A stretch of DNA of 34,576 nt, from the NCBI GenBank assembly GCA_021779935.1, contig JAJXZT010000059.1, positions 1-34,576 of the forward strand, given 5' to 3'. Origin of the DNA: Acidobacteriota bacterium (GTDB lineage Bacteria; Acidobacteriota; Terriglobia; Terriglobales; Acidobacteriaceae). A model generated the notes under the pieces. It was not told where the DNA came from and did no database searches. It saw only the letters and a program-made list of their open reading frames with translations. A program made the translations under genes and the position numbers. Positions 10,444 to 33,755 of the stretch are shown here, in pieces (the stretch's first letter is position 1; each line of letters begins with the position of its first letter).

Positions 10444-10515
10444 TACCAGCCGCCCAATCCCAGATCGCTTGCGAACGGCAACCTGAGCCGCATGCATTCA
10501 GCCGATGGAGATCAC

Positions 10516-11462: not shown

Positions 11463-11578
11463 GTATCGTCGGCTACGATTACCCCACAGTGCTCCAAATC
11501 ACCGTCTGGAGACGCTTGGCGGTACTCCTCGGTTTACCATCTGCAAACTGAACGCTAGGCGGTGATTGGCTCGGAACG
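11463..11578 (+). repeat. Dispersed intergenic repeat, copy at 11.5 kb
   Basis: AGTATCGTCGGC at the left matches the copy at 23753. TTTACCATCTGCAAACTG near 11533 and CTAGGCGGTGATTGGCTCGG at the right match the copies at 7018 and 25067. CTCCA...TGGAG can form an internal stem. The 300 bp that follow (to 11895) hold nothing I recognise. Confidence 0.6.
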
Positions 11579-11895
11579 CCAGCTATCTATTTCGCGTTGC
11601 TTGCCGCGTTCCCCGGAATTTGGAGAATGGAGAGCCAACGATTACAGCACCCTTGATAATCAGATTCCATGTTGAGGGTTGCCCCTACATCGATTCTCTC
11701 GACTATGTGACCTTATTTGTAAAGGTACAGGCAGTCAATGCTTGGTCTCCCGGCAAACAAGCGAGATTGACGGAAATATCTATGCGCCTTAGCTAAGGAG
11801 ATCCGCTAGGCCGATCATCGGAACACACATCCAGTATCACAGCCCTGGTGAAACGCCAGCGGAACTGTGGAGAAGCTGCATCGCACCACTGGATT

Positions 11896-12867: not shown

Positions 12868-12924
12868 TGGACCTCCGTGCGAGTCGATTCCCGCAGCTTG
12901 AACAGCGGCGCCTGTGAACAGCCC

Positions 12925-14238: not shown

Positions 14239-14247
14239 AGTTTTCAC

Positions 14248-14559
14248 CCCATGGAAGAACCGTAGTCAACTGCAGCGGTCTTCAGGTGCTTTCGCGAGCG
14301 GCTTCTGTACGGCCCCAAACACATCCGCCATCATATCGCATGGACTAAGAGAGCCCGTTGCCGGCTAGGTAGTCAAGAACCAGGGAGCGTCCGTCGTCGT
14401 GGCCGAGATAATTTTAGGGCTTGCATAGGAATCCCGAATGGAGCGAGAGCGTTTTCGATTATCTTCTCTTTGCCGACCACGACGATTGTCGACCACCGTC
14501 GTCCGTGAGAGAGCCAGATCACAGGAGGGCCAGCAGGTGCGCGCCTGGGAAATGGGAAA
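14248..14559. other. Intergenic stretch upstream of the enolase-superfamily gene
   Basis: It would contain that gene's promoter (minus strand), but no box stands out. Short open frames on both strands have no coding character. Confidence 0.35.
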
Positions 14560-14600
14560 TTCCAAAGGCGACGATAGGCGGTCGTACGGGCCCGAGCCGG
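14560..14600 (+). repeat. Dispersed intergenic repeat, right-end copy at 14.6 kb
   Basis: GGCGACGATAGGCGGTCGTA followed by CGGGCCCGAGCC matches the copy at 2674-2711. The left part is not clear. Confidence 0.5.
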
Positions 14601-14977
14601 ATTCACGCCGTCTGTTTACGCGCGGGCATCGTCAATTTGCGAGATCCCGTTTATCTTATCTGGTTTGCGAAGCAGAAGCTTCCTCGAATTAAAGATCGGC
14701 CGTGATGTCATTTCGCGCAACTCAAGTGGGATGCCGCACCCCGTAGAATGGCCTGTGCTGAGGTCGTGGTGATTCGGCTCACGCTGAGCTAGGATATGCC
14801 TAGAACTGGCTCCAGAGATCTCACCCAGAACCGCATACGTTAACTTGCTGTTCCGATTCGGTGCCTATGATAAGGTGTAACCGGATCAGGAGGCTGCGCT
14901 GGATTTTGCGGACATGAAGTCAGCAACGGGTCGCGACTGAGAGTACAACTGCGCAAGTTTCCAGGTCAAAGGTGAGA
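14601..14977. other. Leader region of the S53 peptidase gene
   Basis: A possible promoter lies at 14845-14871 (TTGCTG, then TATGAT, spaced 15 bp), which would give a leader of about 100 nt. The spacing is poor. No riboswitch-like fold is evident by eye. Confidence 0.25.
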
Positions 14978-17900
14978 ATGTCGACAACATCCCGGTTTAT
15001 TCCGTTGTTGATTCTTCTGTTGTGCGGGGTTGGACAGACTCAGACTCCTGTGATTTCCCGTATCACGCGACCGATCGATGAAAACGTTCACGTCGCCCTG
15101 AAGGGGAATGTGCATCCCCTGGCGCAAGCGGCTTTCGACCTCGGCGAGGTCCCTGATTCATTTCCCGCCTCACGAATGGTGTTGCTCTTGAAGCGCTCAC
15201 CGGAGAGCGAAGCGGCTTTGCAGCAGTTCCTGCAAGAGGCAAACACGGCGGGATCTCCCACCTTTCACCGATGGCTCAAGCCGCAGCAGTTTGGCGAGTT
15301 CTATGGAGTTAGCGATTCCGATATCGCTGCGGTCTCCGGCTGGCTTCAAGGACATGGGTTCTCGATCGACAAAGTCAATCGTGCCCGGACAGTGATCGAG
15401 TTTTCGGGCACGGCCGGGGAGGTGCGCTCCGCGTTCCACACACAAATCCACGCCTATCGAGTGAACGGCGAGGTGCACCACGCCAATGCCGCCGATCCGC
15501 AGGTCCCGGCGGAGCTTGCGCCGGTGATTGCGGGCATCACTCCGATCAACGACTTTCGCCCCAAATCCTACTTGAGTAGTCCCGGCAAGGCGACCTACGA
15601 CAGCAACAGCAAGAAATTTCTTCCGGACTGGACGTTTCCTTCAGGGCAGGATTTGCTGGAAATGTCGCCGGGCGATTTCGCGCTGCAGTACGACCTCGGG
15701 CCGTTGTATGCGGCGGGCATTACCGGCAGCGGCGTCACCATCGGAATCATCGGTGCGTCGAACGTCGACCCGTCGGTTGTGGCGACCTACCGTTCGTTCT
15801 TCGGGTTGCCGGCCAACCCGCTCAAGGTGGTCGTCGATGGAACCGATCCGGGAGAAAACGGCGCCGCCAATGAATCGTATCTGGATGTCGAACTAAGCGG
15901 CGCTGTCGCCCCCGGCGCAACCATCTACTTATACACCGCTGCCGACACCTCGGTGCAATCGGGCCTGTATCTGGCGGCGCTGCGGGCCGTTGACGACGAC
16001 CAGGCCCCTATCCTCAGCACCAGCTACGGTTCATGCGAAGCGGATCTCGGGGCGGCAGGAAACCAGTTCTGGAATGCCCTGTGGGAGCAGGCGGCAGCGC
16101 AGGGGCAAACCTCGTTCGTCTCCGCGGGGGACGGTGGCCCGGCCGGCTGCGATGACTTCAATCAACTCCAGGCGGCGCAGTACGGAAGCGCCGTGAACGG
16201 GTTCAGCTCCACTCCTTGGAACATCTCCGTGGGCGGCACGGACTTCTATTACAGCAGCTACAACCAGTCCACGACCGCTCAGCAATCTCAGTTGCAGACG
16301 TACTGGGATACTGTTCCGACCTGGTTCCCTACCACGTCTCTCCTCCAACCCGTACCCGAGCAGGCATGGAATGTGCCATTCGGACTGAATCTTGCGGATG
16401 GCGGCATCTATGACTCCAGCCAGCCAAGCATCGTTGCGGGAAGCGGCGGCCCGAGCAACTGCGTGAGCGGGACCGAAGCTTCGAACGGCGCTTACAGTTC
16501 GTGCTCCGGCGGATACCCGAAGCCTTCGTGGCAGGCGGGGGTCGGAGTTCCGAGCGATGGCGTGCGCGATCTTCCCGATGTGTCGGTGTTTGCCGCGGGG
16601 GGGCAGAATGACACGTTCTATCCCTTCTGTGCGGGACCCAACGAATGTGTTCTCTCCAATGGCGATCTGTCCATTGGCCTTGTGGCAGGAACCTCGGCCT
16701 CTTCCCCCGCGATGGCCGGCATCATGGCGTTGATCGAACAGAAATACGGAGCGCAGGGACAGGCCGACTACATCCTCTACCCCTTGGCGGCTCAGCACCC
16801 GTCCGCAATTCACGACATCGCGACCGGCAGCAACATTGTGCCCTGCAAGCAGGGTTCGCCGAATTGCTCTCTGAGCGCGGCCACCGACAATACCGAGGGC
16901 AATTACACATTCGGCTACCGTGCCGGCCAGGGATTCGACATGGCGACCGGGTTGGGCAGCGTGGACGCAAACCTACTGTTCAACTACTGGAATTCGATGA
17001 GCTTCAAGTCAACTTCGACCAGCCTCAGCCTGAGCCAGACGAGCTTCCCCCATGGCACTCCGATCACGGTCGACGTTGGCGTAGGCGGGAACGGCGGAAC
17101 TCCAACGGGAAGCGTAGCTCTGCTGATTGCGCAGGGCACTGGAGGAATGAGTCCACTGACTCTTCAGGACGGAGCGGCAAGCGCCACCGTAAACAGTCTT
17201 CCCGGGGGCCAATACAAGATCACCGCCCGCTATAGTGGCGACAATTTCTTCGCATCGAGTAGCTCCAACCCTGTAGACGTGAACGTTGCCCCGGAGGCAA
17301 GTAGCCTATCGCTGTTTGGGGCTTATTCTCTGTTCTCCAGCAACAGCGTGGGCGCTCTCGCAAACGGTGGAAGCTATCCCGTCGGCGCTTCCATCGTGCT
17401 TGAGGCGCAAGTGACCGGAGCGAAAGCGCCGGCCGGATCGAGCGATGGCATTGCCACGGGCAAAGTCACCTTTACAGATGCGACGAGCACAGGCACGGTA
17501 AGTTCAGGCCCGCTAAGCGTGGGGTCGGGCAGCACGGCGGAGTGGTTGCCAGCAGCACTTGGCGCCGGCAGTCACAGCATAAGCGCCAGCTATTCAGGGG
17601 ACGCGAGCTTCAACGCGTCGTCCAGCACCACCCCGCTGAATTTCACCCTGACCAAATCCACGCCATACGTTAGTTGGTCGACAAGCAGTACTTCGATCAC
17701 AATCACATCCGGCCAAAGCCTCACGCTTCAGCTCATCGTTGGCATCAATGTGGCTCCCGCGCCCACCGGAACGGTCACTTTCCGCTCCGGAAATACGGTT
17801 TTGGGGACAGCCACAATAGCGCCGACAACGCTGACCTTTCCCAATATCAATTCCGCGGCTAGTTTGAATCTGGCGAATTTGCCAGCGGGGACGAACTCGA

Positions 17901-18886
17901 TTACTGCACAGTATAGCGGCGATGCGAATTACGAGGCCACAACCTCAGATCCCATCGCGGTCACCGTGACCCAGCCGCAAGCGTCCGCCGTCCTTACCGC
18001 CAGTGCGGGCGCGCCCTCGCAGCTTGCAACGGAGGATTTGATTGTCACGGCCAAGGTTGCCGGCGCGAGTGGAAAGCCCACGCCGACAGGGTCCATCAGT
18101 ATGTATGCTTATGGTCCCGGTGGAGACTGGAGCACCGGCTGTACCTTGGTGAACGGCTCGTGCAGCTTTGATTTTTCGGGCGCATACTGGAGCCCCGGCA
18201 CGGTTACTGTGAATGTGGGTTACAGCGGAGATTCGAACTATGGGCCCGGCGCCACCGTCGTCACAGTGACCATGCTGAACGTGTTCACGATGACGGCTGC
18301 AAATTCAGTATCGTTTGCCGCCGGATCGGCCACGGGCAACACTGCCGTGCTCACGGTGACGCCTATCAACGGATTTACTGGGCCCATCTATTTTGCGTGC
18401 GCGCTTGCCTATTATCCGCCCGGCGCGCAGCATCTTCCCACATGCTCAGTCCCGGCATCGGTGAATGTGACGAGCGCAACCGCGGTGATCTCCGCCATGA
18501 CGATTAGCTCCACGGGACCGACGACGGTTTCGGGCACTGAGGTCTCGCGTGCTTCAGGAAACCGCCGCCCCAGGCCGCCGGGAGGGCGATCTCTCGCGCT
18601 CCTTGCCGGCCTTTTCGCGATCGTATTTCCATTGCGGAGGCGCATTCGCCTCAATGGAACCGGTCTGTGCCTGCTGATCATGCTGCTGGGGTGCTTGGCC
18701 GTGACGAGTTGTGGCGGAGGTGGCGGAGGCGGCGGAGGTGGCGGAGGTGGAAAGACGATCCCCGGCACAACCTCCGGGACCTACAAATTCATGGTCTACG
18801 GCGCCTACACTCAAAACACCGGCACATCTCATCCATTTTTCTCCAGTCAGCCGCAGGTGTTCGTGGTGAGCGTGAGTATTCAATAG
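14978..18886 (+). CDS. Secreted S53 (sedolisin/kumamolisin) peptidase with Ig-like repeats
   Basis: This 1302-aa secreted acid serine peptidase has a signal peptide (FIPLLILLLCGVGQTQT) and a pro-kumamolisin activation domain (about 60-200). The S53 catalytic domain is at about 220-670 with E299 and D303 (NESYLDVELSGAVAPGA) and S573 (GTSASSPAMAGIMALI), so the Glu-Asp-Ser set is intact. Four bacterial Ig-like repeats follow (about 675-1110), each ending in a YSGD-type motif (GDNFF, GDASF, GDANY, GDSNY). The C-terminus has two hydrophobic stretches with Arg-rich flanks, then VTSC and 13 glycines, and a beta-type tail. AGGTG lies before ATG 14978. It is probably autoprocessed at low pH and digests extracellular protein. 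Confidence 0.93.
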   Translation: MSTTSRFIPLLILLLCGVGQTQTPVISRITRPIDENVHVALKGNVHPLAQAAFDLGEVPDSFPASRMVLLLKRSPESEAALQQFLQEANTAGSPTFHRWLKPQQFGEFYGVSDSDIAAVSGWLQGHGFSIDKVNRARTVIEFSGTAGEVRSAFHTQIHAYRVNGEVHHANAADPQVPAELAPVIAGITPINDFRPKSYLSSPGKATYDSNSKKFLPDWTFPSGQDLLEMSPGDFALQYDLGPLYAAGITGSGVTIGIIGASNVDPSVVATYRSFFGLPANPLKVVVDGTDPGENGAANESYLDVELSGAVAPGATIYLYTAADTSVQSGLYLAALRAVDDDQAPILSTSYGSCEADLGAAGNQFWNALWEQAAAQGQTSFVSAGDGGPAGCDDFNQLQAAQYGSAVNGFSSTPWNISVGGTDFYYSSYNQSTTAQQSQLQTYWDTVPTWFPTTSLLQPVPEQAWNVPFGLNLADGGIYDSSQPSIVAGSGGPSNCVSGTEASNGAYSSCSGGYPKPSWQAGVGVPSDGVRDLPDVSVFAAGGQNDTFYPFCAGPNECVLSNGDLSIGLVAGTSASSPAMAGIMALIEQKYGAQGQADYILYPLAAQHPSAIHDIATGSNIVPCKQGSPNCSLSAATDNTEGNYTFGYRAGQGFDMATGLGSVDANLLFNYWNSMSFKSTSTSLSLSQTSFPHGTPITVDVGVGGNGGTPTGSVALLIAQGTGGMSPLTLQDGAASATVNSLPGGQYKITARYSGDNFFASSSSNPVDVNVAPEASSLSLFGAYSLFSSNSVGALANGGSYPVGASIVLEAQVTGAKAPAGSSDGIATGKVTFTDATSTGTVSSGPLSVGSGSTAEWLPAALGAGSHSISASYSGDASFNASSSTTPLNFTLTKSTPYVSWSTSSTSITITSGQSLTLQLIVGINVAPAPTGTVTFRSGNTVLGTATIAPTTLTFPNINSAASLNLANLPAGTNSITAQYSGDANYEATTSDPIAVTVTQPQASAVLTASAGAPSQLATEDLIVTAKVAGASGKPTPTGSISMYAYGPGGDWSTGCTLVNGSCSFDFSGAYWSPGTVTVNVGYSGDSNYGPGATVVTVTMLNVFTMTAANSVSFAAGSATGNTAVLTVTPINGFTGPIYFACALAYYPPGAQHLPTCSVPASVNVTSATAVISAMTISSTGPTTVSGTEVSRASGNRRPRPPGGRSLALLAGLFAIVFPLRRRIRLNGTGLCLLIMLLGCLAVTSCGGGGGGGGGGGGGKTIPGTTSGTYKFMVYGAYTQNTGTSHPFFSSQPQVFVVSVSIQ
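18713..18751 (+). repeat. Poly-glycine codon tract in the S53 peptidase gene
   Basis: Thirteen consecutive Gly codons built from GGC, GGA and GGT follow a Cys codon (VTSC). Its trinucleotide make-up allows length change without a frameshift. Cys followed by poly-Gly after a hydrophobic stretch looks like a lipobox placed internally. Confidence 0.85.
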
Positions 18887-19267
18887 GAGGATGGGGCGAG
18901 GAAGGTCGCCCTTCAGAATTGTGCCCGTCGGTGTCTACAACATCGGCAAGTATTCAGAAATTCGCTATTTGTACCTCAGACAAAAAGACGGCGGGGAACC
19001 AAGGCCTTAGGATGAAGTCTGTCCAACTGCGAGTGCCCCGCCCCTCCGCATTGGATGGGAATCGCGATGACAGCGATACGACTCCCCACAAGTTAGCTTT
19101 GCGCTAGGTTTCCGGAGGTAAGCGTTTGATTGGCAGCCAACCGCTTAGCCGGCGGCTCGTGCAGGTTAATGCCGGAACAGCATGCCGGTTCCGAAAATGG
19201 AGTCACCATTTTCCTGTGGCAGGCCCGTTCATTATTGACCGACACCTATCCCACTAGGCAGCAGTCC
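18887..19267. other. Intergenic stretch after the S53 peptidase
   Basis: No recognisable gene. The open frames here lack ribosome sites and coding character. The end of the stretch merges into a repeat copy. Confidence 0.4.
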
Positions 19268-19353
19268 ACGATCGGCAGGGCACCCACCCCGAAAAACTCC
19301 CGATCGGTTTACTACTTCGACAAGGAAGAGTCGCCGGTCATTCACCCGGAAAC
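19268..19353 (+). repeat. Dispersed intergenic repeat, short copy at 19.3 kb
   Basis: ATCGGCAGGG at the left, then GGTTTACTACTTCGACAAGG and GTCGCCGGTCATTCACCCGG at the right, match the internal TTTACTA and right-end motifs of the family. It lies between the convergent S53 gene and the exported hypothetical gene. Confidence 0.5.
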
Positions 19354-19369
19354 CGTCAAAAAAGGCACG

Positions 19370-19936
19370 CTACTGCTTTAGTTTTTCACACCAGGTGAGC
19401 GGCCTGACGAAGATGATAACCTCACCCGGCTTTGCAGCCGCTATAGGCTTTCCGCAGGTATTCGCCATGGTGGTCCCCTTCTGCAGCACCCGGCTGGTGG
19501 ACAGTTCCATCGTCTTGAGCCAGGAATACTCCCCGCCGTTTAGCTGACACAATGCATAAGGAACATTGATCCGAAGAGATTCGTTGTACTTCACGATAGG
19601 ATGGGTCACGACAATGGACCCGCGTTCGCTCGGAAGGTTTGGAATGTTTATTTCTGCGGTATTGAGAGTGAGTTGTAACGAAGCAATACCGTTCACATCA
19701 GTCGGTATAGTGATCGCATCTTTTCGTTCTGTACCCACCCATACATTTACGTAGGACGCCTTCCCCGCCATGGGGTGCCCGTTTCGGCCATCCACGAGCT
19801 TGATCTTTATCGTTTCCGGTTGTGGTTTCCGCGTTGCTGGCAGTTGCGGATCAGTTGATTGGGCGCGAGAAGCAACTGTGAAAAGTAAGAGGGCGACGAC
19901 CTGCACCACAGCGAATCGAGGAGCCAATTTGGGCAT
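19370..19936 (-). CDS. Exported hypothetical protein, carboxypeptidase-regulatory-like fold
   Basis: About 188 aa. A signal peptide (MPKLAPRFAVVQVVALLLFTVASRAQ) is followed by a single beta-rich domain whose start (TIKIKLVDGRNGHPMAGKASYVNVWVG) and TDVNGIASLQLTL segment resemble transthyretin/CarboxypepD_reg-like domains. Three or four Cys residues near the end (YALCQLNGG, ANTCGKP, TWCEKL) could form disulfides. The frame is open to 20080, but upstream residues are encoded by a dispersed repeat, so a start at 19936 is preferred; ATG 19981 is possible. Neither has a strong ribosome site. The role is unknown. Confidence 0.65.
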   Translation of the reverse strand: MPKLAPRFAVVQVVALLLFTVASRAQSTDPQLPATRKPQPETIKIKLVDGRNGHPMAGKASYVNVWVGTERKDAITIPTDVNGIASLQLTLNTAEINIPNLPSERGSIVVTHPIVKYNESLRINVPYALCQLNGGEYSWLKTMELSTSRVLQKGTTMANTCGKPIAAAKPGEVIIFVRPLTWCEKLKQ

Positions 19937-19978
19937 GGAAATGGACTGCGACAAGCATAGCAGGAGACGTCGCTGGCC

Positions 19979-20111
19979 CATGGTCGGCAATAAGGACAAT
20001 GCCTGCGAAAACTGCTCCGGCCGAGCCGGAACCTCCCGGGCCACGTTCGGGAAACTTGCGGTATTGTTTACTAGAACCAAACGTCAGCCTGGCCGGAAAT
20101 ACTCTCAGAAC
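19979..20111 (+). repeat. Dispersed intergenic repeat, full-length copy at 20.0 kb
   Basis: It aligns end to end with the copy at 7018-7153. The hairpin TCCGGC-CGA-GCCGGA (20016-20030) lies at the same place as the hairpin there. TTGTTTACTA and GTCAGCCTGGCCGGAAATA mark the right part. Confidence 0.75.
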
Positions 20112-20238
20112 TCGATTTCGGGCTCGCTGGGGGAGTTGGGATTTGGCTTGAACCGAGAGGCGAAGTGTCTTAGGGCGAGCGTAATCGGCAAAGCAGGCAG
20201 CCTCATCGTCCTGGATCTACCATGCGCATAGGTAAGGC

Positions 20239-22151: not shown

Positions 22152-22347
22152 GGCGGTCCGGCTCACGCTGGAGTGATCGTGGCCGAAAATTCGCATAGAA
22201 CCGAGATTTCATTGTTCATGTCGGAAATGAAAACTCCAAGGGCGATGTTTGCCGGTGACACACTCGAAAACCCGCTGGGGGCGTCATTTCGAGCAGTTAG
22301 CCTGGACCAGCTAGTTGGCGATTATGAGCCAATCGAGGGAACCTTGA

Positions 22348-23752: not shown

Positions 23753-23888
23753 TATCGTCGGCGATGGAGAGATGCCACCGAGCTGCTGCAGCCCGGTACG
23801 AGTCACCCGGGGCTTTGGCCCGAGCTTTGGACACGGCAGATGTTGATCAATTCGACAAGTCAGCATAGCCGGTAATACGCCCGGAACG
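23753..23888 (+). repeat. Dispersed intergenic repeat, full-length copy at 23.8 kb
   Basis: Positions 23758-23868 match 25070-25180 at 110 of 111 bases. The core has GGGC-TTTG-GCCC. The right end CCGGTAATACGCCCGGAAC is shared with 29510-29528 rather than with the 25-kb copy. It lies 86 bp upstream of the lipoprotein start. Confidence 0.85.
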
Positions 23889-24058
23889 TCTTTTTGGACA
23901 CCCCGCGACGCTGAATTTAGTTGCAGGGCTTAGAATGTGATCGATTCAGCAGAAGCGCGATGGGGAAGCAAGAATGAACATCTGCACCCGGAATCAAATG
24001 CGCAAAAGCATCTCTCTTGCTACAAGTGCGCTCCTGATTGCTTTGAGCGCTTGCTCCA
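23871..24058 (+). repeat. 188-bp direct repeat, copy 1 (lipoprotein leader)
   Basis: Identical base for base to 29511-29698, offset 5640. It covers the end of the dispersed repeat, the upstream region and ribosome site, and the codons for the signal peptide and lipobox of the lipoprotein at 23974. Confidence 0.97.
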
Positions 24059-24924
24059 AAGACAAGGTCAATCCGCATGGCGGACAACTGGTTGCAACGA
24101 ACTTCTACGAGCGTCCCTTCCATTTCGATTGTTCACCAAATCCAACGCCGCAAGGTGCTTCTTCGTTTACGACAGGTTCGACTCAGCCTGACTACGCACG
24201 TTCGCGTGCCGATACACTTGACCTGCCGCACAATGAGATTCCCGCCTTGACAGTTGCCGTTGAATTAATGAATATCGTCGAAATTGCTGCATCTCCTCAG
24301 GATCATTGGATTGCGCACTATTGCGCGATGGGAAAGGGCAACACGCCGGAGGAAGCCGACAGGAATTTGCGGAAAATCTCGATGGAGCGTACCGGAAGTC
24401 TGCTCTCGTTTAACAGCAGTAGTGCGGGTGGATATGGTCATCTCCTGCTGGAGGTGCCCCCCGGAGCGCCTTTAACCGTGCATAGCGATAATCCTGTAGA
24501 AATCCACGACCTGTCTGGACCGGTCCGCGTCTCGAGCTTGGGTCGTGCTGTCGTCCTCAATACAACGGGTCGCCTGGATATCTTGGCCATGGCCATCGAT
24601 TTTGCGGGTTCGCGGGGATCAGTCTTCCTCAATGCGTCCGAGGAAATCAACTTCATGATCACTGCGGCCAACTTCCAAGGCAGTTTGGCCGCCAACGCGC
24701 AACATCAGGTAAACGCATACTTCCCAGCCGGTTTTCAAACCCGAGTGGACGTCTTTGTCGACCGCCCGAAGGATTTCATCTGTCGCGCCGATTTCTGCTT
24801 AAAGGTCAAGAAAGATCGCGAAGGCGGTCTCTACCGGTTCACGTATGGCGACGCCAAAGGTGCAACTGATCGAATTGCCATAAGATCCATGGACGCGCAG
24901 GTCACGCTTACGACGATACCGTGA
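23974..24924 (+). CDS. Lipoprotein with DUF4097-like beta-repeat C-terminus
   Basis: This 316-aa lipoprotein has a signal peptide and lipobox LSAC (C27) in MRKSISLATSALLIALSACS. The C-terminal half is a run of short beta strands (APLTVHSDNPVEIHDLSGPV, RAVVLNTTGRLDILA, GSVFLNASEEINFMITAANF) ending in GDAKGATDRIAIRSMDAQVT. This is the pattern of DUF4097-like beta-helical proteins. ATG 23974 has GGGGAAG 6 nt upstream; ATG 23998 is the alternative. The gene lies wholly between two near-identical repeat copies, and its 5' end is duplicated at 29.6 kb. The function is unknown. Confidence 0.82.
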   Translation: MNICTRNQMRKSISLATSALLIALSACSKDKVNPHGGQLVATNFYERPFHFDCSPNPTPQGASSFTTGSTQPDYARSRADTLDLPHNEIPALTVAVELMNIVEIAASPQDHWIAHYCAMGKGNTPEEADRNLRKISMERTGSLLSFNSSSAGGYGHLLLEVPPGAPLTVHSDNPVEIHDLSGPVRVSSLGRAVVLNTTGRLDILAMAIDFAGSRGSVFLNASEEINFMITAANFQGSLAANAQHQVNAYFPAGFQTRVDVFVDRPKDFICRADFCLKVKKDREGGLYRFTYGDAKGATDRIAIRSMDAQVTLTTIP

Positions 24925-25066
24925 GACCCGACTGCTCAATTTCACGCGCCCAAGCTCGTTTGCCATAGCAGGGCAAGTGCCACGTCAGTTCCTGAATAGG
25001 TAGTTCTACGAACTGGGCGCGATAGAGAGTAACTGCGGCGTCTGCCACGAAAGGGTTTTGTCTGAG

Positions 25067-25197
25067 TGGTCGGCGATGGAGAGATGCCACCGAGATGCTG
25101 CAGCCCGGTACGAGTCACCCGGGGCTTTGGCCCGAGCTTTGGACACGGCAGATGTTGATCAATTCGACAAGTCAGCATAGGCGGTGATTCGGGCGGA
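25067..25197 (+). repeat. Dispersed intergenic repeat, full-length copy at 25.1 kb
   Basis: Almost identical to the 23.8-kb copy, with a different right end (GCGGTGATTCGGGCGGAATG). The two copies are direct repeats 1312 bp apart, flanking the lipoprotein gene. The 140 bp before it (from 24925) hold nothing else recognisable. Confidence 0.85.
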
Positions 25198-25308
25198 ATG
25201 GCCATCTTGCCGTTGTATGTTCTCGCTTGGTCACCAGCAGTGGTGACGGCTATCACGTTGATGGCGGTGAATGTCAGCAACCATAGGCACGCGTACTTTG
25301 AGGCTGCA

Positions 25309-26199
25309 ATGAAAGCCTTTTGCAGAGCAGTGGTTCTTGTCTGGGTTGCATGCATCTTTCCTTCTGGATGCGGTAGCAACTCTAAGCCCATATCCGCACC
25401 GCCGGGTAACAGTTGCAGTGGCGCAGCTCTCTCGGGCACAATGCGTGACTCATTGACTCATCAGCCCATCACGCAAGGAATGGCCATCCTTGAATCGGGA
25501 ACCCAGTTGGGCGTGCCGAGCATCTACAGTTTTGCTCCAATGCAACAAGTCGGGACCAATGCGCAAGGCGAATTCAGCCTTTGTGCACAGTCGCTTCCCA
25601 GCCCCTCGGTCCTCGTTCTTCAGGCAACGGACCCGGGTGGTAAGGCATATCCGCCCTACGTCACAGCCGTAACAATGGCCGCCGACCTTGGAATTGTTTC
25701 GATGGGAGGGTGCACCGGAGTATGCGGTTTAGCAGGTGAGCAGCAGACTGCCAAACCCGCAACCATTACCGGCGTCGTCACCAGTTCACCAATTGGGATA
25801 ACGGGGACTCTGATTCCTCAATACGTCATGAATGCCCTAGATGGATCGAAAACTCCAGACGGCCACTCCAACCTGTGGGCGTTGGCAATGCCTGTGTTCG
25901 GCGCATCTCCCATACTGACATTCAGTTCCGCGCCGGGTGACTGTGGCGGGACGGAGCCATTCTGTTTTGCGTATACATTTTCAGTGCCAGCGCAGAGCCC
26001 GTTTTATCCAATCGACGGCGGAACAATGGGGATGGCCGCTCCGCCTGGTTATTTGATTCATTCCGTACCAACCGCCTCGTTTGTATGCACCCCTCCGCTT
26101 GCAGACGCTTCATTTCAATCGGACGGAAAATCATTCCTTGTCACAACGGAGGGTGCACAGCTGATCGCGCAAACCATCGACTTCGCGAACTGCCGCTGA
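25309..26199 (+). CDS. Lipoprotein of unknown function
   Basis: This lipoprotein of about 296 aa has a signal peptide ending in a lipobox-like FPSGC (C21) from the ATG at 25309, which has GAGG 6 nt upstream. The frame is open back to 25198, but that stretch is repeat-derived. Residues 36-130 look like a carboxypeptidase-regulatory-like beta domain (LSGTMRDSLTHQPITQGMAI, VGTNAQGEFSLCAQ, SVLVLQATDPGGKAYPPYVT). The rest is Gly/Ser/Pro-rich with scattered Cys (MGGCTGVCGL; DCGGTEPFCFAY). It may be a surface protein. No enzyme motif is seen. Confidence 0.75.
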   Translation: MKAFCRAVVLVWVACIFPSGCGSNSKPISAPPGNSCSGAALSGTMRDSLTHQPITQGMAILESGTQLGVPSIYSFAPMQQVGTNAQGEFSLCAQSLPSPSVLVLQATDPGGKAYPPYVTAVTMAADLGIVSMGGCTGVCGLAGEQQTAKPATITGVVTSSPIGITGTLIPQYVMNALDGSKTPDGHSNLWALAMPVFGASPILTFSSAPGDCGGTEPFCFAYTFSVPAQSPFYPIDGGTMGMAAPPGYLIHSVPTASFVCTPPLADASFQSDGKSFLVTTEGAQLIAQTIDFANCR

Positions 26200-26220
26200 A
26201 CAGTCCGACGGGTTCGGGCC

Positions 26221-26275
26221 GTATCGTCGACAATTGGGAAACAAGCCAGTCTTGGGGCAATGACCCGCCTGAACT
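26221..26275 (+). repeat. Possible short dispersed repeat before the permease gene
   Basis: GTATCGTCGACAATTGGGAA resembles the left end and GCAATGACCCGCCTGAAC resembles the right end of the family, like the short form at 29440-29528. Confidence 0.4.
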
Positions 26276-26335
26276 ACGAACTTCTCAAAGCTTCGCGGGA
26301 ACCTACGCAGTTCGGTTCGCGTACCACATTTGCGT

Positions 26336-28750
26336 ATGTTTAGCGACCTGAAACTAGCCCTTCGTCAGCTAGCCAAGTCCCCGGGCTTTGCCATCACTTC
26401 TGTCGTCACACTGGCTCTCGGCATCGGCGCGAACGCCATCGTCTTCAGTGTCATGAACGCCCTTGTACTTAAGCCGCTCAACCTTCCCGGTAGCGAAAAT
26501 CTTTACAGCGTCCAGCGCTTCACTTATCCGTCGCAGTCCTACCCCGACTACATCGACCTGCGCGATCGCAACCATACGTTCGAGAGCTTGATGATCTTCC
26601 AGATCATCGGCGCTGTCGGTGTCGATACTGGCGGGCATCCCTCGACTGCGTGGCCCTTCCTCACCAGCGGCAACTACTTTGATGCTCTCGGCGTGCAGCC
26701 GTACCTTGGCCGTTTCTTTCATCCCTCCGATGAGAAGGGCAACAACAGCGCTCCCTACGTCGTCCTCAGCTACGCCTATTGGCACAGCTACTTCCACGGC
26801 GACCCCGGCGTCATTGGGCATGCGATTTCTATCAACAAGCACCCATTCACTGTCATCGGCGTCGCTCCATCGACATTCCGCGGAACCGAGCTCTTCTTCG
26901 CGCCGGCCATGTGGATCCCAATCGTCGAGCAGCCCACGGTCCAGGGCTCGAACGAACTTCAGAATCGCGGCGACCACTCGCCCTGGGTGATCGGACGTCT
27001 TCGCAAAGGCGTAACTCCAGCCGAAGCGACTGCCGACCTCAACACCATCGGCGCAGCGCTCGCGAAAGCCTACCCAAGTGACGATGACGGTGTAAAATTC
27101 TCACTGGCCAAGCCCGGCCTCGTCGGCGACTTCCTCGGCGGTCCGGCGCGCGCTTTTGTGGCCGGCCTCATGCTGCTAGCCGGCCTTATCCTGATCGCGG
27201 CGTGCGCTAACCTCGGCAGCCTCTTCGCCGCCCGCGCCTCCGATCGGTCCAAGGAAGTTGCCCTGCGCATTGCGCTCGGCTCCCGCCGTCGACTCATCGT
27301 GCGTCAACTGCTCACAGAGGCTATGCTGATTTCCATCACTGGCGGCGTTCTCGGCCTCGCCGGTGGCGTGGTTCTCCTGCGCTTCCTCAGTGCCTGGCAG
27401 CCCCTGCCCGACATCCCTATCAACGTTCCTGTCAACCCCGACTTTCGCACCTACGTCGTGGCTCTCCTGCTCGCCCTCGTCAGCGGCTTCCTTTTCGGCA
27501 TGGTTCCCGTGCGCCAGGTCCTTCGCGCCGACCCTTGGCAAATCATCCGCACCGGCATGAGTTCTGACGCCCTAAAGCGCTTCAGCTTGCGTGACGTCCT
27601 CCTAGTCGCCCAAATCGCCATCTGCGCCGTCCTCATCACCTCGTCGCTCGTCGCCGTCCGTGGGCTCGTCCGTTCGCTGCACTCAGACTTCGGCTTCAAC
27701 CCGCAGAACGTCATGCTCGTCGATACGGACCTCCAGATGGCTGGCTACAAAGATGATCAGGTCCCGCAGATGCAGCGCCGCATGATCGACGCCGTCGCTT
27801 CCATCCCCGGAGTTACCACCGTCGGCACCACGAACAACATTCCCCTTGGCCTCGGCGGAGGCGACTCCTTCGTCTATAAGGACGCCACCACCGATTTCCG
27901 CCCCACCAACATGGCTGCCGACGCCATGAACTACAGAGTTTCTCCCGGGTACCTCGCTGCCGCCGGCACGCGTCTCCTCGCCGGACGCGATCTGACCTGG
28001 AACGACACCAAGAGCGCCACCCGCGTCGCAATCATCAATGAATGCTTCGCGATCAAAGTCTTCGGCTCTGTCCAGAGGGCCATCGGCAGCCACTTCAAAT
28101 ACTGGGGCGGAGAGCGCGCCGAAGTCGTCGGCGTAGTTGAAGACGGCAAGTACCGCACCCTGACCGAAGATCAGCAACCGGCGATGTTCTTCTCCTTGCA
28201 ACAACACACCGATAGTGACACGTGGCTGGTGCTTCGCTCCGCCCGCGATCCGCAGGAATTGGCTCCGGCGCTAGACCGCACACTGCATAACCTCGACTCC
28301 GCCCTGCCGCTTTCCATCCGCACCTGGGACTCGGAGATGGATTCCGCCCTCTTCGCCGCGCGCGTCGCCACCGTCGCTCTTGGCGTCCTTGGCCTACTTG
28401 GTGCCATGCTCGCCATCACCGGCATCTTCGGGATGGCCTCCTACGTCGTCTCGAAGCGCATGCGCGAACTCGGCATCCGGGTAGCGCTCGGCGCCGGGCG
28501 GCGGCAGATCCTCGGCGCGTCGCTCGGTCGTGCCTTCCGCCTGCTCGCCTACGGCTCTATCGCCGGGATCGCCCTCGGTCTGCTCGCAACGAAGATACTA
28601 GCCTTTATCGTCTACCAGGCCACTCCGCGTGATCCCTTCGTCCTCACCGGCGTCACCCTCACCATGCTTGTGCTCGGCATGCTGGCCGCCCTCATACCCG
28701 CGCGCCGTGCATTAACTGTCGACCCACTCATTCTGCTGCGCGACGAGTAG
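26336..28750 (+). CDS. ADOP-type ABC permease (MacB-like, two FtsX domains)
   Basis: This 804-aa membrane protein begins MFSDLKLALRQLAKSPGFAI, with the first membrane segment TSVVTLALGIGANAIVFSV. A MacB-type periplasmic domain follows (YPSQSYPDYIDLRDRNHTFE onward). A first FtsX block lies at about 275-405, a second periplasmic domain in the middle, and a last FtsX block at about 680-800 (GMASYVVSKRMRELGIRVALGAGRRQIL). This duplicated layout without a linked ATPase gene is that of ADOP proteins, numerous in Acidobacteriota. ATG 26336 begins the conserved N-terminus, though a ribosome site is lacking. It probably works with an ATPase encoded elsewhere, in export or envelope signalling. Confidence 0.93.
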   Translation: MFSDLKLALRQLAKSPGFAITSVVTLALGIGANAIVFSVMNALVLKPLNLPGSENLYSVQRFTYPSQSYPDYIDLRDRNHTFESLMIFQIIGAVGVDTGGHPSTAWPFLTSGNYFDALGVQPYLGRFFHPSDEKGNNSAPYVVLSYAYWHSYFHGDPGVIGHAISINKHPFTVIGVAPSTFRGTELFFAPAMWIPIVEQPTVQGSNELQNRGDHSPWVIGRLRKGVTPAEATADLNTIGAALAKAYPSDDDGVKFSLAKPGLVGDFLGGPARAFVAGLMLLAGLILIAACANLGSLFAARASDRSKEVALRIALGSRRRLIVRQLLTEAMLISITGGVLGLAGGVVLLRFLSAWQPLPDIPINVPVNPDFRTYVVALLLALVSGFLFGMVPVRQVLRADPWQIIRTGMSSDALKRFSLRDVLLVAQIAICAVLITSSLVAVRGLVRSLHSDFGFNPQNVMLVDTDLQMAGYKDDQVPQMQRRMIDAVASIPGVTTVGTTNNIPLGLGGGDSFVYKDATTDFRPTNMAADAMNYRVSPGYLAAAGTRLLAGRDLTWNDTKSATRVAIINECFAIKVFGSVQRAIGSHFKYWGGERAEVVGVVEDGKYRTLTEDQQPAMFFSLQQHTDSDTWLVLRSARDPQELAPALDRTLHNLDSALPLSIRTWDSEMDSALFAARVATVALGVLGLLGAMLAITGIFGMASYVVSKRMRELGIRVALGAGRRQILGASLGRAFRLLAYGSIAGIALGLLATKILAFIVYQATPRDPFVLTGVTLTMLVLGMLAALIPARRALTVDPLILLRDE

Positions 28751-28837
28751 TTCGCAATCCTCCATCTGAACCTTCACTACTCAAGAACCGCGCCACTAAA
28801 CCAAAAAAGAACCGCCTGCAGTAGACAAGATTTTGGC

Positions 28838-28870
28838 ATAAAAGCGACAGTAGCCGGTCACTCGCCCACG
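28838..28870 (+). repeat. Dispersed intergenic repeat, right-end copy at 28.8 kb
   Basis: AAAAGCGACAGTAGCCGGTC followed by ACTCGCCCACG matches the right end of the family. It lies between two convergent genes. Confidence 0.5.
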
Positions 28871-28899
28871 ATGTCCATTGAAGTTGAGCAATCGTCTAT

Positions 28900-29400
28900 T
28901 CATCCGAGAGTGGAGAGGCGTGCTTCAAGTTCGGCGATCGGCATTAGTCGCTGGCCCAAAAAAGACACATTTTGGGGTGAGTAGAAAACCATCCACTCAC
29001 CGGACTGATCGACCGTGTAGCTAAAGTCTGAAGCCACGGTTGCGAATACGTCTCGACTAGCGCGAGCGGCTATGACAGTCCGCCGCCAGCTTCCCTTACC
29101 TGAACCGATTCGGCAGTCAAATACGACGAAGGGAATGTCATTCTGCACGCCCTCAAAGACATTCCATGTTGCGCTTCTGCTAGCTAACGGTGTCCCCGCC
29201 AGCGATAGGTCTGCAGGCAGTTGGTGTCCACGAGCCTTCAGGCCTAGAGTACTCGCCATCCTTGCCATTTCTTTAGCTCGTCTCCAGTCATCGATTGCAG
29301 ACCACAGAAAGAAACTCGCGAGTGCGGCTACCCACACAGCGATGCCCCAATGGCTCATCGCCTCATGTCGTCGCACCGGAATTGGCCCAATCATCAGCAT
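28900..29400 (-). CDS. Small single-pass membrane protein of unknown function
   Basis: About 166 aa. One N-terminal membrane segment (WGIAVWVAALASFFLWSAI) is followed by DDWRRAKEMARMASTLGL and a soluble domain with WNVFEGVQNDIPFVVFDCRIGSG. The latter resembles domains in small membrane proteins that compare a short-lived conformer, but I cannot assign a family. The frame is open to 29496, yet its first part lies in a repeat copy. ATG 29400 is plausible and ATG 29358 is also possible. Confidence 0.6.
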   Translation of the reverse strand: MLMIGPIPVRRHEAMSHWGIAVWVAALASFFLWSAIDDWRRAKEMARMASTLGLKARGHQLPADLSLAGTPLASRSATWNVFEGVQNDIPFVVFDCRIGSGKGSWRRTVIAARASRDVFATVASDFSYTVDQSGEWMVFYSPQNVSFLGQRLMPIAELEARLSTLG

Positions 29401-29439
29401 CGCTCGCCCTTTTTTAATCGTGCAACGCCATTGTTGTCG

Positions 29440-29528
29440 AGTTGTCGGCGATGGAGACAAGGCCCCGGAAGTTGCCAAATTGAACAACATCGGCAAGGGT
29501 CATCATCGGCGGTAATACGCCCGGAACG
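29440..29528 (+). repeat. Dispersed intergenic repeat, short copy at 29.5 kb
   Basis: GAGTTGTCGGCGATGGAGA at the left and CATCGGCGGTAATACGCCCG at the right match the family, with about 45 bp missing inside relative to the 23.8-kb copy. From 29511 it is identical to the end of that copy. Confidence 0.7.
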
Positions 29529-29698
29529 TCTTTTTGGACACCCCGCGACGCTGAATTTAGTTGCAGGGCTTAGAATGTGATCGATTCAGCAGAAGCGCGA
29601 TGGGGAAGCAAGAATGAACATCTGCACCCGGAATCAAATGCGCAAAAGCATCTCTCTTGCTACAAGTGCGCTCCTGATTGCTTTGAGCGCTTGCTCCA
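29511..29698 (+). repeat. 188-bp direct repeat, copy 2 (orphan lipoprotein leader)
   Basis: A perfect copy of 23871-24058. It carries the ribosome site and the first 28 codons (through ALSACS) of the lipoprotein, but not the rest of the gene. The sequence diverges at 29699, four bases before the group II intron. Confidence 0.97.
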
Positions 29699-29702
29699 CG
29701 TC
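29614..29702 (+). pseudogene. 5' fragment of duplicated lipoprotein gene, interrupted by intron
   Basis: This fragment encodes MNICTRNQMRKSISLATSAL and the LSAC lipobox exactly as at 23974, then four unrelated bases, then the intron. After splicing, the leader frame would continue through 31621-31867 for about 80 codons, but that part is antisense to the gene at 31767-32468 and looks non-coding. A gene fragment is therefore the likely reading. A neighbouring frame in the 3' exon (EFTVRYPFAKPYPGLSEANH) looks more protein-like but is shifted by one base. Confidence 0.6.
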
Positions 29703-31620
29703 GTGCGCCGGGATAAACCGGCATGTTGTAGGGGATGCTAGAGCCCTACAGGAAAGGAGACAGCGACTCCATCCTGGCCTCGAGTCTTGCATGGGACATC
29801 GCGAGGTATTTTGTGAAGCGTAGACCAGAGGTTTCGGTGGGCCGGGCTATTGAGCTTCGAAAGGTCGCAGATCAGGATGCCGACTCCCTGACGAGTAGGA
29901 GGAAGGCAACACGACAGCTGCGTTATCGCGAGTGGCTGTGTCGGTCCTGCGTAGTCTGAGAACCCGCGCACGCTGAGAAAACAACATGCACGAGAACCGG
30001 GAGATCTCCAGTGCGCCTTTGGGAGTTTCCAGAGGCCGGTCCGCGAAGGCGATAAGCCGAACGGCGGATATGCACGTGCTGGAGAAGTCGGACTGCGCCG
30101 TAGTACCTGTGAACCAGCCGAACAAGGCAGCGCAAACCGCCGCGGAGGTTGGGGAGGGAAGGGCACAGATGAAGGAGAACATCGATCAGCCACGCATGCT
30201 CCCGACACAGAGCGGGACCCGCATGTCACAGGGACTGGACGGTGTGCGTAAAGCAGCAAGGGAAAGGAAGCAGGAACGGTTCACTTCCTTGCTCCACCAC
30301 CTGACTACATCACTTCTGCGCGACAGCTTCTACGCTCTCCAGCGTCAGGCTTCTCCGGGAATCGATAGCGTAACGTGGCAGGAGTATGAATCCGGTTTAG
30401 AAGATCGGCTTGTTGAACTTCACAGCCGGGTTCAGAGTGGGACGTATCGGGCGCAACCTTCAAGGCGAGTCTATATACCGAAGGCCGACGGGCGGCAACG
30501 TCCGTTGGGTGTCGCGGCACTGGAGGACAAGATCGTCCAACATGCCGTGGTGACGATCCTCAATCAGATTTACGAGGTCGGCTTCAAGGGCTTCTCTTAC
30601 GGGTTCCGTCCGGGGCGCAGTCCGCATCAGGCGCTGGACGCGCTTGCAGTGGGACTGGAACGAAAGAAGGTGAACTGGGTGCTCGACGCCGACATTTTGG
30701 GCTTTTTCGACAATTTGAGCCACGAATGGGCGGTTAGATTCATCGAGCACAGGGTGGCCGACCGAAGAATCATTCGCCTGATCCAGAAGTGGCTCAAAGC
30801 GGGTGTGTCGGAGGATGGCCAGTGGTCGGAGACAAAGCAGGGTACGCCGCAGGGAGCAGTGGTCTCACCGCTGATCGCAAACGTGTATCTCCACTACGTG
30901 TTCGACCTGTGGGCGGATGTCTGGCGCAGGAAAGCGGCACAGGGCGATGTCATCATCGTTCGCTACGCCGACGATCTTGTGATGGGCTTCCAGCAACGAG
31001 CCGACGCCGAGCGGTTCCTTGAGGACTTCAGGGAGCGGCTGGCGAAGTTCGGCTTGCAACTTCACCCGGAAAAGACCCGGCTGATTGAGTTCGGGCGTTA
31101 TGCAGCCCGTGACCGTAAACAGCGCGGGGTTGCGAAACCAGAGACGTTCAACTTCTTGGGCTTTACCCACTACTGTGGGCAACGTCACAAGACCGGGACC
31201 TACACCGTCAAGCGAATTACTGCGAAAAAGCGGATGGTCGCGAAGCTGAAGGCCATCAAGGCCGAGCTTCAACACCGCAAGCATCACCGCTCAAGCGAAG
31301 TCGGTGCGTGGCTTCGGAAGGTCGTCAATGGCTATTACCAATACCATGCTGTGCCCTGAAATCTCGACCAGATGCGCACCTTCCGTCAGCGCGTGGCCTG
31401 GCTGTGGCGAAATGTTTTAGTTCGTCGCAGTCAACGCGCACGCAAGAAATGGGAGTTGCTCACTCCGATCTTCGACAGGTGGATACCACGACCGCGTATC
31501 CTGCACCCCTACCCTCAGACTCGCTTCTACGCCATCCATCCTTCATAAGAGCCGCATGCGTAGACGCGCTCGTGCGGATCTGTGCGGGGGGCGGTCAGCG
31601 ATGATCGTCCCTACCGCGAC
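29703..31620 (+). mobile_element. Group II intron (1918 nt) with encoded reverse transcriptase
   Basis: The 5' end is GTGCGCCGGGATAAACCGGC, matching the group II GUGYG start. The 3' end has a domain V-like hairpin (GAGCCGCATGCG...GCTCGTGCGGATCT, 31549-31582) with the AGC triad, then a domain VI stem ending CCCTACCGCGAC. In that end an unpaired A stands 7 nt before the AC terminus, as expected for the branch point. The maturase-type reverse transcriptase lies in the usual domain IV position. The intron is inserted in the same orientation as the lipoprotein leader. Boundaries are set by motif and may be off by a base or two. Confidence 0.85.
29986..31548 (+). pseudogene. ltrA: Group II intron reverse transcriptase/maturase, in-frame TGA
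   Basis: The 520-codon frame encodes a typical intron RT. N-terminal RT0/RT1 segments (SFYALQRQASPGIDSVTWQE; RRVYIPKADGRQRPLG) are followed by palm motifs (LDADILGFFDNLSHEW; GTPQGAVVSPLIANVYLHYV), the catalytic YADD at Y327-D330, and HPEKTRLIEFG. The maturase domain X includes FNFLGFTHYCG and WLRKVVNGYYQYHAVP. Codon 458 (31357-31359) is TGA where relatives usually have Gly, so translation stops. The same frame then continues for 62 codons of the family's normal ending (MRTFRQRVAWLWRNVLVRRS...WIPRPRILHPYP) to TAA 31546. The last part of domain X and the DNA-binding region would be lost. No HNH endonuclease domain is present. Confidence 0.88.
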
Positions 31621-31766
31621 AAGGTGGAGTTCACTGTGCGGTACCCGTTTGCCAAACCCTATCCTGGTCTTTCCGAGGCGAACCATTCTGGATGAGTGCG
31701 TTGGCCTGAAATCGACACTTGAAACCAGGATTGGTAAACAGATCTTTCGCGAGGTCAGCAGTGCTT

Positions 31767-32468
31767 TCACCGCCTTCGAACGACAAGCGCCTGGCGTGCG
31801 TGTTCGAGAAATGTCTGTGCAGTTCTTGGCGATTCTGTATCGAGGCGGACCCGGCCTTTGCCCATAGGGACATCGCTATTAAGCGGCAAAGCCTCTCCGT
31901 ACAAAATCAGCAACTCCGTTCGGTGATCGGCCGACGGAAAATGGACCATTCGGACCAGAACAGACTTATGCGGAAGAGAAAGGTTGTGTTTTGCAAGCAA
32001 ACGTTCCAATGCTGCACCATCCGAGGCCTGATCTTCCGCCAGAGTGGCCGCAAGATCAGAGAAGCTTTTCACGTCATAGATGAATTGCATGTCGCCTATT
32101 TGCTTCGTCTGCATGGAGTCGTACTTGTAAGTGAGGTTGTTCGTCGGAAGAAAATGCTCAAACTGCAGCAGGTAGAATCTTTCTGCAGTATTGCCAGCGC
32201 CCGACCGCACAAATACATACTGCTCTGCTTCCGCATTTCCATAAAGATTTATTTGTTGATCGCCAATGAACCGGAACCCTTTCGGAATGCGCAGCTCTGC
32301 CCTGGGTGATTCTTCTGAGATGATCGTTCTGCCTTTGACGTGGCGTGTTACTTTAACGTCCTCTTCCTGGCTCGCGTGAGCAGACATCGCAATACCCAGA
32401 AGTAAACACATCATTCCGACCGCCATGGCGCTCCCGCTCGACAAGACTTGTCTTTTCGTGGGGTCCAT
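31767..32468 (-). CDS. Exported hypothetical protein
   Basis: About 233 aa, with an N-terminal signal peptide (MAVGMMCLLLGIAMSAHASQ, after a basic start MDPTKRQVLSS). One mixed alpha/beta domain follows (RAELRIPKGFRFIGDQQINL, AEQYVFVRSG, FYLLQFEHFLPTNNLTYKYD), ending FLEHARQALVVRRR. No catalytic motif is evident. ATG 32468 has GAGG 8 nt upstream; the frame is open to 32660, but that part has no coding look. Its 3' end is 147 bp from the intron. It may be a periplasmic stress or binding protein of unknown family. Confidence 0.75.
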   Translation of the reverse strand: MDPTKRQVLSSGSAMAVGMMCLLLGIAMSAHASQEEDVKVTRHVKGRTIISEESPRAELRIPKGFRFIGDQQINLYGNAEAEQYVFVRSGAGNTAERFYLLQFEHFLPTNNLTYKYDSMQTKQIGDMQFIYDVKSFSDLAATLAEDQASDGAALERLLAKHNLSLPHKSVLVRMVHFPSADHRTELLILYGEALPLNSDVPMGKGRVRLDTESPRTAQTFLEHARQALVVRRR

Positions 32469-32529
32469 TTCGCAATCCTCGTCCATCTCTGAAAGATACA
32501 TTCGAGAGAAGTTAAAGTTCCCTTGCAAT

Positions 32530-32620
32530 GGTCGGCAAGCCTGTGGGTGATAATCTCCGCCGAAGCGCTCACTGAGCGGCTTGCCAAATCCTTGAGTGGG
32601 TCGGGCTGTTGGCAAAAGTT
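32530..32620. repeat. Uncertain dispersed-repeat relative
   Basis: ATGGTCGGCAAGCCTGTGGG resembles the left end seen at 7018 and 19979. On the minus strand, CTTCGGCGGAGATTATCACC resembles a right end. The match is weak and the orientation ambiguous. Confidence 0.25.
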
Positions 32621-32702
32621 GACAGTCCGCGCTGCTGGTGAGACTTGGTTGAAACTTCACAAAGCCCCTTTTCCGAGAACGAGCGAGCCAATTACACGCT
32701 GT

Positions 32703-33269: not shown

Positions 33270-33755
33270 TTATAGGAATTGCGACGTTCTGCGTGCTGTC
33301 GTAACTGTGTAGCTCGTAATCGGAGAGAGATCCGCGAGCAGCTCTTTGGCCTGCTCAACGGTGAGCCACTGGCCCAGACGGACGCCCTGCGCAGGAACAT
33401 TGGGCACGGAGATGATGCGCCCTGCACTGGACGGATCGACGAGGCCATTCTCGCGGGCTTCGTTCACCAGTTTGCGCACCCCCGACAGGCGAACATTGAT
33501 GGTGGAGCCGCCCAGACCGGCGTCTACCATCTCCGAGCGGAACTGCTGGAACAGCTGCCAGCTGATCGGCTGGCCGGTGCGTACGGACAGCGCCAGTAGA
33601 TCGTCGAACGCCTTCGCGTAGGCGCGGCGCGTGTGCGCTGAAGGAACCGAATTGGTGAGCATCGCGCGGAGCGCCGCCACCGAGGCAGGACCGGCCGGAC
33701 GGGCCGCCGGCGGAAGAACTGAAAACGGAGTGAGAGAGGAGATAGAGTCGTTCAT
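33270..33755 (-). pseudogene. Truncated tyrosine recombinase (core-binding domain only)
   Basis: 161 aa. Residues about 25-115 are the SAM-like core-binding domain of XerC/XerD-type phage integrases (NSVPSAHTRRAYAKAFDDLL, ISWQLFQQFRSEMVDAGLGG, STINVRLSGVRKLVNEAREN). The start of the catalytic domain follows (RLGQWLTVEQAKELLADLS). After that it diverges to SPITSYTVTTARR and stops, so the catalytic Arg-His-Arg-Tyr region is absent. The break is near 33326. It cannot recombine DNA and marks a decayed mobile element. Confidence 0.8.

Follow-up and report, generated by a model that had tools for sequence, protein, structure and literature searches.

Why does a bacterial contig carry two identical copies of the start of a lipoprotein gene, only one of which continues into a recognizable protein? 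The window analyzed here is the whole of contig JAJXZT010000059.1 (34,576 nucleotides; C12 below), one of the 72 contigs that make up the 4.49-Mb draft genome of an Acidobacteriota bacterium (GCA_021779935.1). By exact letter comparison, positions 23870–24058 are identical to 29510–29698 over 189 bp. The identity reported in the first-pass annotation (from 23871 and 29511) is confirmed letter for letter, and begins one base further left with the same last bases, 24058 and 29698. With moderate confidence, we propose that the window represents a section of an integron-like array of cassettes, in which the recombinase is Xer-like and not an IntI and the sites are not attC. In this array, a lipoprotein module was copied at the core of a site, truncated, and later followed by a group II intron.

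The duplicated leader and its breakpoints

The duplication is far beyond chance: the window contains 216 repeated 30-mers, of which 160 belong to the leader pair and 56 to a 130-bp pair at 23757 and 25069. If a few mismatches are allowed, the match extends left to 23859/29499 (99% over 200 bp), and with gaps to 23843/29480 (96%). The weaker similarity left of GGTAATACGCCCGG arises because both copies carry a member of the same repeat there. No copy beyond these two was found in the 4.49-Mb genome. The copied part comprises the upstream region, ribosome-binding site, start ATG (23974/29614), signal peptide and, by eye, the lipobox LSAC, and it stops short of the mature protein, just as the annotation had described. 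Copy 1 (23870–24058, plus strand) begins with the core of a site, here named rA, and leads into an orphan lipoprotein gene recognized as an open reading frame (ORF) of 316 aa (23974–24924, plus strand), the content of an intact cassette at 23870–25180. Copy 2 (29510–29698, plus strand) is the same cassette truncated after its start; 4 nt past the end of identity lies the first base of a group II intron, with no new mature protein. The lipoprotein has no match in Pfam or NCBIfam, and none in a search of plasmids. Distant homologs occur in 2 of 99 other genomes, matching residues 43–299 and 102–297 with the leader not included, and its sole further match in its own genome is the truncated copy (residues 1–30). 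The sequences that follow the two breakpoints share no homology (score 19 versus a shuffled mean of 20.8).

The left breakpoint can be placed by comparing three plus-strand sites. Site rA (23757–23886), detected by profile, consists of a body, 23757–23868, plus the core. Site rB (25069–25198; sequence comparison and profile) is 95% identical to rA, and joins rA's body to another core and downstream sequence: there is one mismatch in the bodies and five in the last 18 bases, beyond which the two are unrelated. Site rC (29438–29539; sequence comparison and profile) is the converse, with a different body followed by rA's core and downstream sequence, identical for the 189 bp of 23870–24058. Both switches are located within 23868–23874, a span of ~6 bp. 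Judged from sequence, this mosaic switching at rA resembles site-specific recombination; general recombination could also give such a mosaic, but nothing would lead it to switch at the same few bases on two occasions. The suggestion that the repeat motif marks the left breakpoint is borne out, and the motif now looks like a recombination site. Its description as a dispersed repeat needs correcting: the sites were found on a few contigs and are not spread across the genome.

To the right, copy 2 runs into a group II intron (29703–31620, plus strand) that starts GTGCGCC. It possesses a D1–D4 core (RF02005 at 29740–29964, E 1.9e-46), a D5–D6 region (RF00029 at 31547–31620, 39.9 bits, just under the cut-off of 40) and an intron-encoded reverse transcriptase/maturase (29986–31359, plus strand; TIGR04416, 347 bits against a cut-off of 300). 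No other copy of the intron was found in its own genome; at E 1e-20, 12 of the 297 genomes searched from the phylum have similar introns, own genome counted, and the introns of three relatives share the GTGCGCC start after exons that look unrelated. By flank comparison, the CGTC at 29699–29702 (minus strand) is most simply read as the last piece of an opposite-facing, second-type site as well as the end of the intron's 5′ target, which would place the intron inside that site. The remainder, which the intron separates from the site's final bases, lies at 31621–31744 on the minus strand, where a profile of repeats from another genus (G423, see below) matches 31723–31632 (E 4.2e-6). Both flanks, when joined, align with contig C25 of the same genome (local score 45, versus a shuffled mean of 22.4 and a maximum of 38 in 300), and share with it the 12-nt TCCACCTTGACG, which spans the intron position. 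The intron 6-mer GACGAG at 29890 forms five Watson-Crick pairs with the 5′ target CACGTC; its assignment as exon-binding site 1 (EBS1) is weak because three other intron 6-mers reach 5/6 pairs with the target if G-T is counted. The joint between leader and site probably preceded the entry of the intron. An orphan gene just before the second-type site (31767–32660, minus strand; an ORF with no family above cut-off) possibly forms with it a gene-plus-site cassette on the minus strand.

These data bear directly on the idea, central to the first-pass annotation, that a movable expression-and-export leader creates chimeric surface proteins. If intron splicing joined the leader (29614–29702) to 31621–31867, the frame would stay open for 111 aa and would be the best of the three in the 3′ flank at −0.107 bits per codon. 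That score is lower than in any of the five genes used for comparison (−0.036 to 0.128), the 3′ flank resembles a repeat read on the opposite strand, and only two leaders were found in the genome, all of which makes a chimeric lipoprotein extremely improbable. We rejected it: copy 2 leads into the intron and then the opposite-facing second-type repeat, with no recognizable protein, and is best read as a dead cassette stump rather than a chimeric gene. The genome search that the annotation had suggested, for further copies of the 188-bp segment or lipoproteins sharing its leader, returned nothing beyond the truncated copy. The finding is an isolated truncated duplication without a chimeric protein, the outcome that the annotation had itself set against its proposal, and a puzzling duplication is explained in ordinary terms.

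The array of sites and the modules between them

Sites rA, rB and rC belong to a longer series. A position weight matrix (PWM) built from five sites, one of which (r20k) entered five bases out of register, found 12 plus-strand matches in the window that scored above 11 bits. Of these, seven were outside the training set, again all on the plus strand, and the best controls reached 10.3 on the other strand and 10.6 on the reversed sequence. Model R1, trained on 14 sites (12 from the window and two from contig C18) and scored on 150 of 1340 candidates, identified 14 window sites, 12 of them in its training set and 14/14 on the plus strand. Apart from rA, rB and rC, these comprise r7k (7015–7165) and r20k (19978–20120), both detected by profile, and a site at 11464–11581 (31.5 bits) with the left arm TATCGTCGGC at 11464 and its right half at 11531–11581. 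Right halves were found at 158–206 (31.3 bits), 3564–3615 (25.4 bits), 5378–5425 (26.1 bits), 14552–14601 (28.5 bits), 19306–19356 (29.5 bits) and 22228–22275 (26.9 bits). A further right half at 28840–28875 is weak (17.0 bits; outside the training set), and one at 2671–2697 is doubtful (12.9 bits, E 0.4), scoring no better than background hits on contigs C20 and C65. Arms of the form TATNGTCGGC ... GSCGGTNATWC bound several window sites, and look like the palindrome arms of sites in related genomes (below) read on the other strand. With later start codons for four genes, none of the 14 sites overlaps a gene (10/14 with the longest ORFs); random placement gave at most 8 gene-free sites in 5000 draws under either choice of start codon.

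Beyond the window, Model R1 matched contigs C18 (3 sites), C19 (4) and C25 (1), with one orientation per contig, and its four further matches in the genome all had E above 0.07; convincing sites elsewhere in this genome are thus confined to those three contigs. A profile built from window sites only, which is the fair test for these contigs, gave 28.7 and 25.5 bits on C19, 28.2 on C25 and 17.7 on C18, and its reversed control was empty. An insertion-sequence or transposon end was considered and rejected: there was no similar DNA in plasmids, and of 297 genomes of the phylum (E 1e-3) the organism's own alone matched. The right-end pattern matched three stretches in a genome collection and four in a viral collection; these seven are taken as chance, though one beside flagellin genes scores 20.1 bits with the repeat profile. 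At 6284–6330 of the window, a right-half-like core runs straight into a left arm (ATTGTCGGC at 6305); this may be a pair of adjoining half-sites.

The sites bound modules of one to a few genes. These include a Phd-like antitoxin (22.8 bits, under the cut-off of 29.8) with a PIN toxin, further pairs that by eye look like toxin-antitoxin genes, and an ADOP permease at 26330–28750 (TIGR03434, 763.7 bits, cut-off 622.3), a family that points to Acidobacteriota. The genes on C18 are beta-lactamase-family, shikimate-kinase-like and DUF5615-like (the last below its cut-off), and those on C19 were named by eye only. The first two sites flank a gene at 342–2603 for a Tex-like RNA-binding protein (by eye).

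The recombinase and sites in related genomes

Contig C18 (L042) encodes the catalytic domain of a tyrosine recombinase (PF00589, 100 bits), flanked by arm motifs at 3028 and 4180. A second tyrosine recombinase lies at the right end of the window (33270–33755, minus strand), truncated to an N-terminal part (PF02899, 22.5 bits, cut-off 22.3) with the catalytic part missing. At E <= 1e-40, 73 of the 300 genomes searched from the family have a homolog of the recombinase, own genome counted, and there are intact members of 319 and 324 aa. The best-matching models are XerD and XerC at 96–108 bits, far below their equivalog cut-offs (about 330). The integron integrase model TIGR02249 gives 49.6 bits for the C-terminal piece on C18, and 38.5 and 53.3 for two full-length homologs, against a cut-off of 265. 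In alignments with PDB structures, the catalytic domain of the homolog from genome G558 exceeds XerD by no more than 6 residues, and a XerC-like chain by 3, in the part that precedes the HxxR motif.

Fifty-seven stretches around the homologs were examined, and repeats or imperfect-palindrome sites were found near them in five other genera. G423 features five plus-strand repeats of about 140–190 bp, situated outside ORFs of at least 190 aa and with no inverted pairs. Four of these trained a profile which found the fifth (E 5.6e-12) and also matches the window array. A profile from four stretches of G516 matches G558, G490, G404, G394, G405 and G470; one of the four seeds includes recombinase coding sequence, and matches at recombinase 3′ ends are therefore partly coding similarity. 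The refined profile identifies ten full palindromic sites of 51–58 bp at E < 1e-10, in G558 (5), G516 (2), G490, G404 and G470, nine of which were seeds found earlier with the G516 profile. Eight of the ten lie on the recombinase strand, and the reversed sequence gave no match. Their consensus, GGATGACGGGCAACTCTTCC...GGTAAGGTTTGCCGACAATCC, forms an imperfect palindrome, one arm of which has an additional G, and single folds of the ten range from z −4.27 to +0.59. A structured hairpin was tried as an explanation and is unsupported by covariation, 320 of 500 shuffles scoring as high. In G558, G394 and G405, a left half-site lies 46–47 bp before the recombinase frame and a right half-site 27–29 bp after it; in G516 the right half is at the same distance after both broken recombinase copies, and in G490 the left half is visible in the alignment only. 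By analogy, this arrangement resembles a primary site split by the recombinase gene.

Several further features were seen in these stretches. G558 (L102) has six large ORFs at 855–19885, serine/threonine kinase-like with a repeat domain (by eye); three of the gaps between neighbors hold a site, and one does not. G516 (L142) has, within 1–5250, two copies of the 3′ part of the recombinase gene together with its surroundings, 4.6 kb apart and 95% identical over 620 bp, with both open frames only 146 aa long. Four direct repeats with a common AGAAACGGGCTT motif surround another recombinase homolog in G404 (L146, 5877–18500), perhaps a third type of site. Several other stretches around homologs, for example L105, L119, L123, L129, L133, L137 and L141, also have direct repeats without inverted ones, which could be duplicated genes or further arrays.

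Competing explanations and known systems

In the mechanism we envisage, same-facing recombination sites would bound modules of one to a few genes, and an Xer-like tyrosine recombinase, of which C18 carries a homolog, would exchange these modules at the core, near CGG^TNATWC. The lipoprotein module 23870–25180 would have been copied by core recombination beside the body of rC, the copy would have lost everything past the lipobox on joining the opposite-facing second-type site, and the group II intron would have entered that site later. We infer the role of the repeats as recombination sites, the action of the recombinase on them, the exact crossover base and the order of events. More tentatively, this may be a cassette-capturing platform distinct from integrons, seen in six genera of one family, with an Xer-like recombinase that lacks the integron-integrase segment, split half-sites flanking the recombinase gene, and mostly same-facing palindromic sites with a core of the GTNATNC type.

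A number of observations weigh against this account. Recombination itself is deduced from sequence, and contigs C12, C18, C19 and C25 are assumed to represent one island, or one organism. The C18 recombinase is split over two frames (3106–3585 and 3449–4087), so it is dead or misassembled, and the frame break means that the array may be a relic in this genome; moreover, the pattern by which the C18 arm motif at 4180 is recognized was loosened after the motifs had been seen. Within the window, four sites overlap the first part of a gene when the longest ORFs are taken, four sites fold no better than shuffles (z −0.66 to +0.83), and the modules, up to 4.7 kb long and carrying genes on either strand, are unlike most integron cassettes. 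Among the relatives, window-site profiles find nothing convincing (best 10.2 bits, the one match in 683,339 bases), full palindromic sites occur in 5 of the 57 stretches and are absent from one subset of 20, G423-type repeats occur in one stretch, and the four self-repeats in L146. Of the ten full sites, two are oriented opposite to the recombinase. The half-site matches are singly weak (E 0.003–0.5), and may in part be ordinary conservation of gene flanks; in the palindrome, compared with the conserved hairpin into which the attC bottom strand folds, 81.2% of cells are paired, yet there is no covariation beyond what column composition gives.

Some of these same points favor an account in which the repeats are ordinary intergenic homology for general recombination, with no dedicated recombinase, and unequal exchange or gene conversion duplicated the leader before a deletion and the arrival of the intron. 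The similarity of the two copies does continue left of the core, most recombinase stretches of relatives lack a recognized array, and the palindrome does not covary. We nonetheless consider this account unlikely: both identity switches fall on the same few bases, the sites face one way and avoid genes, and in three other genomes half-sites keep a fixed spacing to the recombinase frame. An assembly artefact, whereby a short repeat led the assembler to duplicate or misjoin the stretch, would suit a draft of 72 contigs in which three of the four site-bearing contigs are short (6–7.5 kb), as if broken there; the chance of this is very small, as the flanks of the two copies are all different from one another, four in total, 189 bp is short for a repeat, and the joint runs on into a second-type repeat that is also present on C25. 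Improbable too, if less so, is that the window belongs to a true integron, or to a cluster of attC sites lacking integron-integrases (CALIN), with attC sites and an integrase that have simply diverged very far. The layout is the same, with a recombinase, mostly same-facing imperfect palindromes, and orphan and toxin-antitoxin-like genes; the core GTNATNC resembles the attC box GTTRRRY, and group II introns are known in integron arrays (PMC7923331). Set against this, the intact recombinases fall far short on the integrase model (38.5–53.3 bits versus 265) while reaching 96–108 bits with XerC and XerD, and their catalytic domain has at most six extra residues relative to XerD. Paired attC boxes are not enriched either: the boxes are RYYYAAC and GTTRRRY, and the window holds one pair per strand, versus a shuffled mean of 2.33 for one strand. 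The first box is printed as RYYYACC in PMC7923331. The array was not filed as an integron because of the low integrase scores, the few extra residues, the unenriched boxes and a core that only resembles GTTRRRY.

Other systems built on related recombinases offer partial parallels to the array proposed here. In the dif (pdif) modules of Acinetobacter, as described in PMC13141974, Xer-type recombinases move gene modules, often toxin-antitoxin, between short sites. Those sites are 28 bp long and alternate in direction save in fused modules, whereas the sites here are about 52–150 bp, run one way and have a recombinase gene alongside; in the window all are on the plus strand, longer than 28 bp and, by eye, unlike the alternating XerC/XerD sites of dif modules. 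The Xer-like simple tyrosine recombinases covered by PMC8138268 resemble ours in that XerD and XerC are the best models, but the link here appears to be with arrays and not with the resolution of chromosome dimers. The group IIC-attC and group IIB integron introns recall our intron in lying inside or beside the site of a cassette array, as set out in PMC7923331; the host site here differs in not being attC and in having, by eye, no TTGT/T target.

Among natural systems that collect and shuffle genes, integrons are the textbook case, and they offer a close comparison. As in integrons and CALIN elements, same-facing sites surround orphan and toxin-antitoxin-like genes (14/14 plus in the window, 8/10 on the recombinase strand in relatives), the relatives' sites are imperfect palindromes, a putative half-site lies beside the recombinase gene, and a group II intron sits within the array. 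The differences are that the recombinase fails IntI models and shows no extra segment of the I2-helix type, that the sites are without RYYYAAC/GTTRRRY boxes, and that many modules hold several genes on either strand. A search of the PMC literature, which leaves preprints and most subscription journals outside its scope, gave no account of such an array among the matches listed. The array, possibly a separate platform, is tied to an Xer-like recombinase by co-occurrence in several genera, and its function is inferred. Such a distinct platform would either have arisen independently or be related to the ancestor of integrons. Integron integrases are said (PMC7790495) to have gained an extra helix en route to single-strand recombination. 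If our reading is true, a working array run by a recombinase without that extra segment would make the origin of integrons testable, and would represent a second route of bacterial gene trading, with a marker by which such islands can be found.

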